DNA of 64,000 nucleotides from Gemmatimonadota bacterium. Lineage in GTDB: Bacteria; Gemmatimonadota; Gemmatimonadetes; Longimicrobiales; Gaopeijiaceae. Positions within the stretch are counted from its first letter, which is position 1. The number at the start of each line of letters is the position of its first letter. Below the pieces are notes generated by a model, which was not told the DNA's origin, searched no databases, and was given only the letters and a program-made list of their open reading frames with translations. Both the position numbers and the translations under genes were made by a program. Location of the stretch: NCBI GenBank assembly GCA_009841165.1, contig VXMI01000173.1, forward strand, positions 1 through 64,000. Direction: 5' to 3'. This document shows, one piece after another, positions 24,601 to 27,942 of the stretch.

Positions 24601-25136
24601 CGAATGGCGGCGCGGCGCCGCTCCTTGTACTTCCCTATCCCGGCAGCTTCCTCGAAGAGGGAGCGGCGTTCGTCGGTGCGTTCCGAGAGGATCGCATCGA
24701 TCATTCGGATCTCGATCACCGAGTAGGCGTTGGCGCCCAGACCGGTGTCGCGGCACAGATCGACGATATCCCGCAGGCGACACGCGGAGCGATTGAGCCG
24801 GTAGTCGCTGCCACCGTCCCGATACACCGTCCTGGCGATCTCCACCTCCTCGAACGGGATGGCGAGTGCTCCGTCGTCGTTGTTGACGACCATGGAGACC
24901 GAGCCGCGGTTCACCGGACGCCTCGAAGCCGTGCCCTGGAAGATCACCTCCTCCATCTTGGCTCCCCGGATCGCGGTGGGCCGCTGTTCTCCCAGGACCC
25001 AGCGGACGGCATCGCCGATGTTGGATTTGCCACACCCGTTGGGGCCGACGATCGCGGTGATGCCCTCGTGGAATTCCACCCGCGTGGAATCCGCGAAGGA
25101 CTTGAAGCCGTGGAGCCGGAGGGACTTGAGCTTCAT
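21669..25136 (-). CDS. smc: chromosome segregation protein SMC
   Basis: A 1155-residue SMC ATPase that organises and segregates the chromosome with ScpAB. N-terminal Walker A GPNGCGKSN is at 31-39; two long coiled coils flank a hinge around residues 500-650; the C-terminal head has the signature LLSGGERALT at 1054-1063 and Walker B FCVLDEVD at about 1079-1086. A 48-bp AT-rich palindromic patch at 24056-24103 encodes roughly residues 345-360 in the first coiled coil (see separate entry). The ATG overlaps rsfS by 4 nt. No scpA or scpB is in the window. Confidence 0.96.
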   Translation of the reverse strand: MKLKSLRLHGFKSFADSTRVEFHEGITAIVGPNGCGKSNIGDAVRWVLGEQRPTAIRGAKMEEVIFQGTASRRPVNRGSVSMVVNNDDGALAIPFEEVEIARTVYRDGGSDYRLNRSACRLRDIVDLCRDTGLGANAYSVIEIRMIDAILSERTDERRSLFEEAAGIGKYKERRRAAIRRLETAEVDLQRVEDVIAEVRTKVRSLARQKGKAQRYRELRERRLAVEVAVARVELDELDLHLSRLRADLQSDREESAGMAAALAAAETGLERTRLEQLEAEKTRVACAERLDAVGSELSRIETEVAVADERLANGRRRLAQIAEERQSVTVLHASAKDELAVLEDLRSECKLSFTSLQVDLTERKQAADEVRTRVDEARAETRTLEEASRSVAARMARLEGDRDSARLQAAELARRLDRLARDARQGAGALREVESQRDLFADRQTAATRAAEQVTRDFEASRRRLAMVRGRLASARAGEMRAETQLSALDAELAALKGLAGSDEGAASMAAAARQAFPEAVRGELSDFVHVSGSAARSVDALLGPYGSALVVHGRRDVERITRWYHGNAERRAALRLLPLDAVPAPPGPLPAGVTAAGDGAPWVRALLGGADAGDDGGWTDVRGVCYLLPDIGAEGGLERRGRIEALSAECELAREMLDEAREVRLGCEEEQRGAETEADRASDQVLAARDEARAAESEATTQGERRERLSRHQAETQHRLVETRASRDRALGRERQAEDERSRLRDEEVSVADRVQESREVLAAVEAEWEHVRESASEVTIRSARLESRLERLDGQLGDARTTLESTVARLDDLAGEQDALTSESVRIRAARDEGRDALEGLFSKRDELKTVLSEQDRVLGNASAAVAEAERRLREMRGREREAVGRRHQLEMTEQDIRNRAARIGERLEAEWGRPVEALFDEARRVEGETGALRDELQEIVRALERIGPVNMLAVEEHAEESDRLEFLVRQRDDLATARDDLRSAIRRINATATTLFMDTFEAITENFRSTFQHLFSGGRADLRLSNPEEPLESPVEIHAAPKGKRTQRIDLLSGGERALTALSLLFGIYLVKPSPFCVLDEVDAPLDDSNIGRFIRLLQGFKSQTQFVVITHNPRTIAAADWIYGVTMEEPGVSSIVGVRLESPAEASGTTA
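24056..24103. repeat. AT-rich palindromic element inside smc
   Basis: TAAGGTC (24056-24062) pairs with GACCTTA (24097-24103), and within it ATGTAA (24074-24079) and TTACAT (24088-24093) form an inverted repeat with an 8-nt centre. About 38% GC over roughly 60 bp against the GC-rich background of smc. The inner part matches a motif near ccmC (56056-56075). It does not disrupt the smc frame. Confidence 0.6.
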
Positions 25137-25507
25137 GGGACCGACGAATCGGGGATCGGCATCGAACGCGCGTCGCCCCAGAGCGCCTCCAGGCGGTAGA
25201 AGTCGCGGACGGACGGATGAAAGATGTGGACGACATGGTCGATGTAGTCGAGCAGAACCCAGCGACCCTCGTCCAGTCCCTCGATGTGCTCCGGGCGATT
25301 CCCGTCCCCCCTGGCCGAGTCGAGGATGTGTTCGGCGATCGCGCGCACGTGAATGTCGGAACGCCCCGTCGCGATCACGAAGAAATCGGTCGCGCTCGAC
25401 AGATCACGCAGATCCAGCACCGTGACATCGACGGCCTTTCTGTCGAGGGCATAGTCGGCCGCCTTGCGCACCTCCGACGGCATCTCGAAGTCGGCCGATC
25501 CGTTCAC
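25133..25507 (-). CDS. rsfS: ribosomal silencing factor RsfS
   Basis: RsfS (Iojap/YbeB) binds L14 and blocks subunit joining in starvation. The 124-residue protein has AADYALDRKAVDVTVLDLRD, TDFFVIATGRSDIHVRAIAEHI and WVLLDYIDHVVHIF, the family signature. It starts 13 nt after rplI and overlaps smc by 4 nt. A role in translation agrees with the ribosomal proteins upstream. Confidence 0.95.
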   Translation of the reverse strand: MNGSADFEMPSEVRKAADYALDRKAVDVTVLDLRDLSSATDFFVIATGRSDIHVRAIAEHILDSARGDGNRPEHIEGLDEGRWVLLDYIDHVVHIFHPSVRDFYRLEALWGDARSMPIPDSSVP

Positions 25508-25520
25508 GTTCAGGACGCGG

Positions 25521-25976
25521 TCAATCCTCTTCGGCCTCCACGATGACCTGCACCTCCGTCTCCACCCCGGCGTGCAGCCGCAACGGGACGATGTGCTCGC
25601 CGACCGACTTGATCGGCTCGTCGAGCAGGACGGATCGCTTGTCGAGTTCGAAGCCGATTTCCGATTCCTGCAGCCGGTCGAAGATGTCCTTCATGCCCAC
25701 GGAACCGAAGAGGGTTCCTTCGGGGCTCGCACGGGCCTTGAAGGTCAGGGTCACACCCTCCAGGCGCGACGCGCGACGGTTGGCTTCCAGATACGCTCTG
25801 CGGGCCCGTTCCTCGCCGATGCGCCGTTCCTCCTCGATTCGCCGGACGTTCGCCTCGGTCGCCCTGTAGGCCAGCCCCTTCGGGATCAGGAAATTGCGCG
25901 CGTACCCGGGCTTGACCGTGACCAGGTCACCGGCCTGTCCCAGATGGGCCACTTTTTCACGAAGAATCAGTCTCAT
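25521..25976 (-). CDS. rplI: 50S ribosomal protein L9
   Basis: L9 of 151 aa with the N-terminal domain MRLILREKVAHLGQAGDLV and GYARNFLIPKGLA, the long connecting helix rich in Glu and Arg (IEEERRIGEERARRA), and the C-terminal domain. The gene follows the S6-S18 gene by 31 nt, the standard S6-S18-L9 order, which supports the identity of that fused gene. Confidence 0.97.
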   Translation of the reverse strand: MRLILREKVAHLGQAGDLVTVKPGYARNFLIPKGLAYRATEANVRRIEEERRIGEERARRAYLEANRRASRLEGVTLTFKARASPEGTLFGSVGMKDIFDRLQESEIGFELDKRSVLLDEPIKSVGEHIVPLRLHAGVETEVQVIVEAEED

Positions 25977-26007: not shown

Positions 26008-26697
26008 TCAGGCCTCGTGATCCCTGATGTACGGGAGAAGCGCGAGGTGCCGCGCGCGCTTCACGGCGACTCCAAGCTGCCTCTGGAAGCGGGCCGTGAC
26101 CTTCGTCGTGCGCTTCGGCAGGATCTTGCCCTGCTCGGTGAGGAAGCGGGACAGGGTCGTGACGTCCTTGTAGTTGAGGAGAACGATCGGCGGCCCCTCG
26201 TGGCGCCGGCGACGCCCGCGGGCACCGGAGAACACCGGGGGGCCCGAAGTCTGCTCCTCCTCCGGTGATTCCGCCTCCGTCTCTTCGCCGCTGCCGCCGT
26301 CGCCGTCCGCGTCCGAAGCAGTCTCTTCTTCGGCCTCCTGCGGGGGCGGCTCCGGGTCGGCATCCTCCGCGGCCGGCTGCTGCGGCCGTTCGGCGAGGAC
26401 CGAGGCACCCGAGCTGGGCTGCCCCTCGTTGAGCACAATCAGGTAGCGCATCATCTCCTCGTCGAGCTTGAGGAGGCGTTCGAACTCCGGGAGGCCGACC
26501 GGGTCGGCGGTTACGTGGACGATGACGTAGTACCCGGTGCCGACCTTGCGGATCGGGTAGGCGAGCGGTCGCACCCCCCAGTGGTCGACGGTGTTGACTT
26601 CCCCGCCCAGGGCGGCGTGGAAGGTATCGAGTTTGGCGTCCACGGCTTCCCGACTCAGAGCCGAGTCGAGGATATAGACGATTTCGTATTCTCTCAT
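26008..26697 (-). CDS. rpsF-rpsR: fused 30S ribosomal proteins S6 and S18
   Basis: One uninterrupted 229-residue frame. Residues 1-92 are S6 ([47 protein letters not shown]). Residues 93-157 are an acidic, Glu/Ala/Pro-rich linker with no predicted fold. Residues about 158-229 are S18 ([21 protein letters not shown], then [19 protein letters not shown]). S6 and S18 form a dimer on the 30S platform. No stop or frame change separates them; the only candidate for a separate S18 start is a GTG at the linker end without a good Shine-Dalgarno. The start at 26697 follows GGGAG. The S18 part lacks the cysteines found in some S18 proteins. rplI and rsfS follow. Confidence 0.9.
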
Positions 26698-26732
26698 TCG
26701 CGGGAACTCCCTTGGACCGCGGTGAACTACGG

Positions 26733-26753
26733 GCTCCGCTTCCCGGGCGGAGC
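26733..26753 (-). promoter_or_regulatory. hairpin in the leader of the S6-S18 mRNA
   Basis: GCTCCGC (26733-26739) and GCGGAGC (26747-26753) form a perfect 7-bp stem with a 7-nt loop, 36 nt upstream of the S6-S18 ATG. Leader structures containing CCG elements are bound by the S6:S18 complex in other bacteria; whether this one is, is inference. Confidence 0.4.
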
Positions 26754-26771
26754 GGGTATGGTTGTCAGCGA

Positions 26772-26856: not shown

Positions 26857-27942
26857 ATGGACTTTGCGTTCGTAGGTGCTACGAGCAGCGAAACCTTCGG
26901 CTGGTTCGCCCGCGGCTTGCGGGAGGTGATGGAATCGGAAGGTCACCGGTATATGGAGGACTCGGGTGACGCCAAGCTGGTTCTCAACTTCTTTCCGCCG
27001 ACTCGGCCGAGGCCGGTGCGGCGGAAGGCCAACGCCGTGTTCGTCTGTGCGGTCACCGAGTTTCCGGTGCCCTTCACCGAGCACCTCTCCCAGGGGTATC
27101 CCTTCCTGCTGCGCTCGCTGGCCAACCTCGTGGCGGGGTTCGTCCCGTCGTCCGACGGCGGAGGTGCCGACATCCATTTCGTCACCCCGGAACAGGGCCA
27201 CTATGTCGTGTCCGGCGGACTGGACCGGGAGAACTTCTTCCGCGAGGTCTACACGCGCATCGAGCCTCTGGCCGCCTCGACTCTCGTCATCGACAACATT
27301 TTCGAGCCGGATCTGCCGGAGGAGCTCTGGCAGGGCGACGACATCACCGAGTCGATCTACCGGGCCGGGAAGCACCTGGAGGGCCTCAACCTTCTTCCGG
27401 CGCCCTTCCCGATCCATGACTACCTGGCCGAAAGGGACCTGCGGCATCTGAAGCGGCTCTTCGGGATCGGGGGGCTCAGCTACGGCAACCTGTCGGCGCG
27501 CTACAACGACGAGTGGTTCTGGATGAGTGCGAGCGGGGTCGACAAGTCCAACCTGAAGGATATCGGGCAACACATTCTCATGGTCAAGGACTACGACGCC
27601 GAGCGCAACGGCATGCGGGTGAGCCACCCCCCCGGAGTGGAGCCGCGCCGGGTCTCGGTCGATGCGATCGAGCACTGGATGATCTATCGCGAGCACCCGG
27701 AGGTCGGGGCGATCCTGCACGTCCACGGCTGGATCAACGGTGTGCCGTCGACCGAGTTCAACTACCCGTGCGGCACGCGCGAACTGGGCCAGGCCGTCGC
27801 GGACATCGTCCGGGAGTCGGACGACCCCAGCCGGTGCGTGGTGGGGCTGAAGAACCACGGCCTGACGATCACCGGGACCAGCCTCGACGAGATCTTCGAG
27901 CGGGTGGGTGCCCGGATCGTGCAGACGGTGCCGATGAACTAG
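26857..27942 (+). CDS. class II aldolase/adducin-domain protein with unassigned N-terminal domain
   Basis: Residues about 185-355 form a class II aldolase/adducin head: GGLSYGNLSARY, SGVDKSNL, the metal-binding ILHVHGWING and LKNHGLTITG, the pattern of zinc aldolases and epimerases. Residues 1-180 are a separate domain I do not recognise (MDFAFVGATSS, LVLNFFPPTRPRP, FVCAVTEFP), with no transmembrane segment. Such two-domain proteins could act on a phosphorylated sugar, but the substrate is unknown. Length 361 aa. It stands alone on the plus strand between divergent S6-S18 and convergent M20 genes. Confidence 0.8.
   Translation: MDFAFVGATSSETFGWFARGLREVMESEGHRYMEDSGDAKLVLNFFPPTRPRPVRRKANAVFVCAVTEFPVPFTEHLSQGYPFLLRSLANLVAGFVPSSDGGGADIHFVTPEQGHYVVSGGLDRENFFREVYTRIEPLAASTLVIDNIFEPDLPEELWQGDDITESIYRAGKHLEGLNLLPAPFPIHDYLAERDLRHLKRLFGIGGLSYGNLSARYNDEWFWMSASGVDKSNLKDIGQHILMVKDYDAERNGMRVSHPPGVEPRRVSVDAIEHWMIYREHPEVGAILHVHGWINGVPSTEFNYPCGTRELGQAVADIVRESDDPSRCVVGLKNHGLTITGTSLDEIFERVGARIVQTVPMN

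Follow-up and report, generated by a model that had tools for sequence, protein, structure and literature searches.

Ribosomal proteins S6 and S18 are joined in one reading frame across one large family of Gemmatimonadota

Among the assembly proteins of the small ribosomal subunit, S6 and S18 form a textbook pair. Ribosomal proteins made in fusion are familiar from eukaryotes, where eS31 and eL40 are produced as ubiquitin fusions and the non-ribosomal partner is cleaved off. S6 and S18 work together as a heterodimer (PMC4647458, PMC10931766) and are encoded in rpsF(-priB/ssb)-rpsR-rplI operons in E. coli, B. subtilis and other bacteria, with a structured leader before rpsF (PMC4647458, PMC10931766). 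In the S6:S18 autoregulatory element, a stem and a hairpin flank a conserved CCG (PMC10931766, PMC4647458). Furthermore, the acidic C-terminal tail of E. coli S6 is extended by RimK (PMC10931766), and a fusion of two ribosomal proteins, L10-L12, has been described for Candidatus Sulcia muelleri DMIN (PMC2859065).

As outlined in Table 1, the window, i.e. the whole stretch of 64,000 nucleotides analyzed here (contig VXMI01000173.1), carries S6 and S18 in a single gene. The preliminary description of this DNA had claimed one stop-free frame joining a complete S6 to a complete S18 with rplI next in order, and both points were borne out: the frame comprises 229 codons, its product matches Pfam Ribosomal_S6 (PF01250) at residues 3-88 with 79.2 bits (cut-off 27) and Ribosomal_S18 (PF01084) at residues 174-221 with 72.6 bits (cut-off 21), the NCBIfam equivalogs TIGR00166 (S6) and TIGR00165 (S18) each exceed their cut-offs, and rplI follows, with rsfS and an SMC gene also downstream. 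The separate-gene arrangement of rpsF and rpsR, with an S6 stop codon and an S18 start codon between the two domains, is not found here. Searching all 4.27 Mb of the genome returned this locus as the sole S6 and the sole S18. The linker between the two Pfam matches spans 85 residues; since the last ~20 of these are conserved and partly represent the basic N-terminal tail of S18 itself, the acidic tether proper comprises about 60 residues. Elsewhere in the window, a 361-residue protein is encoded at 26857-27942 (+), whose class II aldolase domain is confined to the C-terminal half, while the N-terminal part of ~190 residues gave no Pfam match.

Table 1. Positions of the fused gene, its parts, its leader and the neighbouring genes in the window.
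Feature	Position	Strand	Remarks
Structured 5' leader	26709..26756	-	conserved order-wide, with compensatory P2 changes
Leader P1, CCC/GGG	26754-26756 with 26709-26711	-	pairs part of the Shine-Dalgarno run
Leader P2, GCTCCGC/GCGGAGC	26747-26753 with 26733-26739	-	compensatory changes
Leader P3, CCGT/GCGG	26729-26732 with 26717-26720	-	RNAalifold helix
Fused rpsF-rpsR gene	26008..26697	-	229 codons, ATG start, TGA stop; open frame and profile matches
S6 domain, residues 3-88	26434..26691	-	contact loop R-x-L-A-Y-P and conserved Arg (R84) kept
Acidic, length-variable tether, ~residues 94-151	26245..26418	-	composition and alignment of fused loci
Conserved junction block, residues 152-168	26194..26244	-	RRRR aligns with basic N-terminal tail of E. 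coli S18; no zinc-type CxxC
S18 domain, residues 174-221	26035..26178	-	rRNA-contact K-R-x-R and S6-contact Y-K kept
rplI (L9), next gene of the operon	25521..25976	-	profile match
rsfS, ribosomal silencing factor, downstream of rplI	25133..25507	-	profile match

The survey of fusion versus separate genes covered the Gemmatimonadota, including a sample of 154 genomes of the order Longimicrobiales, 121 of which belong to the family of the window (f1). Of these 121 f1 genomes, 116 yielded S6/S18 loci, almost all of which were read, and the search gave no S6/S18 match in the 5 further ones, which are probably incomplete. The profile search of both domains in related genomes, proposed in the preliminary description as a check, revealed the one-frame fusion in 109 of the 116 genomes and in 37 of 40 genera; the close reading reported below covers 103 fused loci, to which 6 more were added to reach the 109. 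Just two f1 genomes (G053 and G054) are truly unfused, and three other loci lie at contig ends or are unresolved (G094, G097, G116). The linker of L181 (G055) has a frameshift of one base within a C run, and that of L180 (G091) an N-gap in its scaffold; both seem to reflect problems of assembly where the sequence is repetitive and GC-rich. The two sister families of the same order, f2 (18 loci) and f3 (11 loci; together 29 genomes), keep two genes, as do 20 loci from other Gemmatimonadota families; S6 ends in a stop codon at all of these loci, and at nearly all of them the S18 start is a few bases off or overlaps. Further long S18 frames from elsewhere in the phylum were inspected as well, and every one proved to be unfused. 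The earlier view that both proteins are separate in every bacterium consequently needs changing, as one large family normally has the fusion and its sister families have separate genes.

In a tree built from S6, S18 and, where available, L9, all fused copies fall into one clade with an SH-aLRT of 99 (105 rows, namely the 103 fused loci, the frameshifted one and the N-gapped one), and the unfused genomes G053 and G054 are placed outside of it. The fusion is real, of single origin and retained across ~37 genera of one large uncultured Gemmatimonadota family. In the unfused f1 loci L182 and L184, S18 lies in the frame of S6, with the stop and one codon preceding its ATG, and the same in-frame layout occurs in one genome of f3 and several of f2. 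Loci with this layout include L088, L212, L214, L222 and L223, several families are represented, and some members of genus g71, which belongs to another family, have the in-frame S6/S18 layout and are yet unfused. At its C-terminal end, the S6 of the in-frame unfused relatives has an acidic stretch of the same type, and S6 of the unfused Gemmatimonadota closes with runs of D/E. Since S18 is in the S6 frame and a stop plus one codon apart, losing one stop codon would fuse these relatives. Because two early-branching unfused genera have an in-frame S18, we infer a single event early in one Gemmatimonadota family, in which the rpsF stop codon would have been lost while rpsR already lay in the rpsF frame one codon downstream. 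The old acidic C-terminal tail of S6 would thereby have turned into the tether, and the separate ribosome-binding site of S18 probably decayed and the zinc ligands of S18 were probably lost after the fusion.

Among the 103 fused loci the linker varies between 47 and 189 residues (median 59), and every linker length is a multiple of three bases. Its coding frame contains stops at 0/103 loci versus 21/103 and 78/103 for the other two frames. The D/E content has a median of 35%, and amounts to 33% in the coding frame versus 3% in each other frame. With coding-frame stops absent and the D/E bias limited to the coding frame, the acidic open linker is not a product of chance. The block before S18 reads PPEFSG-x-RGRRRR-x-EG, with most positions conserved to 90-99% in the fused loci. 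For R, G and P in this block 4-6 codons are in use, and as the codons vary freely while the amino acids stay, we concluded that purifying selection acts on the translated sequence across the old gene boundary. In genus g6 (L167, L183 and L185 from G038-G040, with 2 Mb genomes) the junction block diverges, reading EVVGPRGSARRRQMDG, and the linker is less acidic. The longest linkers are found in L175 (G037; 189 residues, Ala/Gly-rich) and L172 (G024; 134 residues), and both fusions are otherwise ordinary.

Its occurrence in 109 genomes of one clade, the lack of separate copies, the in-frame indels and the junction conservation support the reading of the locus as an S6-S18 fusion. There is practically no chance that errors in sequencing or assembly produced it, or that it is a decayed copy accompanied by intact, separate genes. 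Two clade members do exhibit trouble at the linker, namely the C-run frameshift of L181 and the N-gap of L180; against this stand the single S6 and single S18 in the genome of the window, the concurrence of the 109 genomes and the selection seen across the junction, by which both a sequencing error and a duplicate gene are refuted. As the fused copies include single-contig chromosomes (G032, G033, G037, G041 and G043), an assembly error, and with it a hidden stop as feared in the preliminary description, is excluded. S18 might additionally be made alone by internal re-initiation in the linker, the fusion then being part of the product, and in-frame ATG, GTG or TTG codons do occur between the domains at 94/103 loci, including an ATG three codons before the S18 domain at 33 loci. 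However, no start position is common to the clade, and that commonest internal ATG is accompanied by a Shine-Dalgarno-like site in just 2 of 33 cases. Unfused S18 starts have such a site at 48/51 loci versus 19/103 for in-frame starts near S18 in the fused loci, and the one late in-frame start of the window (GTG at -14) has none; the internal start has decayed, and since these sites are so much rarer in the fused loci and absent from the window, re-initiation, including the internal start near the linker end that the preliminary description had raised, is very unlikely.

Post-translational cleavage is the main rival as judged from the sequences: the fused precursor would be cleaved within the linker or at the RGRRRR block, and S6 and S18 would be separate chains in mature ribosomes. 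Conservation is strong in the block directly preceding S18 but not in the acidic part, and PPEFSG-x-RGRRRR could in principle be a cut site. Furthermore, an AlphaFold model of the fusion (21 sequences) was poor, with a mean pLDDT of 49, and its low-confidence linker is likely disordered and would thus be accessible. However, in the alignment the RRRR matches the basic tail that ordinary S18 of E. coli has, which provides another reason for its conservation, and genus g6 differs at the very same block. We regard cleavage as quite unlikely, and an uncut, tethered chain as the preferred reading. Also unlikely, though conceivable, is that the uncut chain with its long negative linker and PPEFSG-x-RGRRRR junction forms a new element of the 30S platform which alters assembly, initiation or autoregulation; such an active tether would, as part of the same unlikely proposal, sit by the mRNA exit and the 3' end of 16S rRNA.

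The E. coli residues with roles in S6:S18 and rRNA contact were taken as described (PMC4647458), and S6 was tested for the S18-contact loop RQLAYP and Arg85 in the numbering of that work. In the fused loci the loop is kept with R at 101/103, Q at 89/103, L at 95/103, A at 100/103, Y at 103/103 and P at 81/103 loci, the window reading RPLAYP, and the conserved Arg (R86 in genomic numbering) is present at 103/103. For S18, the rRNA-contact residues K60, R61 and R63 and the S6-contact residue K24 are each found at 103/103 fused loci, whereas Y23 is Y in 92 and F in 11. The residues predicted by this alignment to touch the partner and the rRNA are almost invariant in the fused proteins. The zinc-type (C+) bS18 signature, i.e. 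CxxC with the C..[HC] pair, is absent from 103/103 fused loci, while the zinc-type cysteines are present at 17/18 f2, 11/11 f3, 2/2 truly unfused f1 and 17/20 outgroup loci. Their loss is associated with the fusion and is not unique to it, as some unfused outgroups lost cysteines too. At L212-L214, L197, L198 and L207, unfused Gemmatimonadota S18 loci, the zinc-type cysteines were apparently lost independently. Loss of S21, the platform neighbour of S18, was considered as a correlate of the fusion and ruled out, S21 occurring in fused and unfused genomes alike.

The start codon of the fused gene is preceded by a leader with the consensus CCC-GCTCCGC...GCGGAGC-CCGT...ACGG-ACC-rAGGGA, and related leaders were found in f2, f3 and other families. 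RNAalifold analysis of 54 f1 leaders yielded three helices. Pairing was found in 99.7% of the leader cells versus a mean of 97.4% with the 3' halves shuffled, a value of 99.7% being reached by 0 of 1000 shuffles, and both-side changes occur at three P2 pairs; the leader covaries. Taken alone, the single leader sequence of the window does not fold with unusual stability (z -0.64). The leaders at more than 100 loci share the covarying three-helix form, and some f1 genera seem to have a much longer P2 hairpin. Set against the rpsF_leader, the leader has three helices with the CCG and its Shine-Dalgarno GGG is paired, while an Rfam search gave no match for it. It resembles the S6:S18 autoregulatory element and is a putative counterpart of it.

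We consider it highly probable that the fused gene of single origin yields an uncut S6-S18 chain which assembles as a tethered unit under an autoregulatory-like leader. The two proteins, which normally pair before binding 16S rRNA, would be permanently tethered in a single polypeptide, and we expect this chain to form the usual S6:S18 pair on folding and to bind the 30S platform as one unit. The tether would fix a 1:1 stoichiometry and make the pairing intramolecular, and, like the S6:S18 complex of E. coli, the tethered unit probably represses its own mRNA via the conserved leader. As deduced from sequence, uncut translation and the position on the ribosome are most likely, and autoregulation is probable.

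In the open-licence literature, judged by titles and abstracts, we found no report of an S6-S18 fusion, and no PDB chain among the solved chains listed covers both domains; the fusion may already be visible in domain-architecture databases. A natural, clade-wide fusion of this kind would demonstrate that a covalent tether between two ribosomal proteins is tolerated by the ribosome and retained by evolution in bacteria of ordinary genome size. The event is dated to one branch with sister lineages one stop codon away. It is also of interest why the two genes never fused in neighbouring clades that share the in-frame layout. It also offers a ready-made single-chain S6:S18 for work on assembly and autoregulation and a marker for the family.

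In comparison with the bS6:bS18 pair of the rpsF(-priB/ssb)-rpsR-rplI operons (PMC4647458, PMC10931766), the domains, their order followed by rplI and the contact residues are shared, and a structured leader precedes rpsF in either case. In contrast, those operons encode two chains with two start codons and here there is one chain, neither priB nor ssb lies between S6 and S18, and S18 lacks both the CxxC and its own start. The acidic tail of S6 is common to E. coli and the unfused Gemmatimonadota; in the fusion it forms the tether and leaves no free C-terminus to modify. Unlike in the ubiquitin fusions, both parts of the S6-S18 protein are ribosomal and cleavage is not indicated. As here, the L10-L12 fusion of Sulcia brings two mutually binding ribosomal proteins into one frame, but it is confined to one strain of a minimal-genome insect symbiont and absent from the sister strain (PMC2859065), whereas the S6-S18 fusion extends over a whole family with genomes of ~2-5 Mb and 37 genera.
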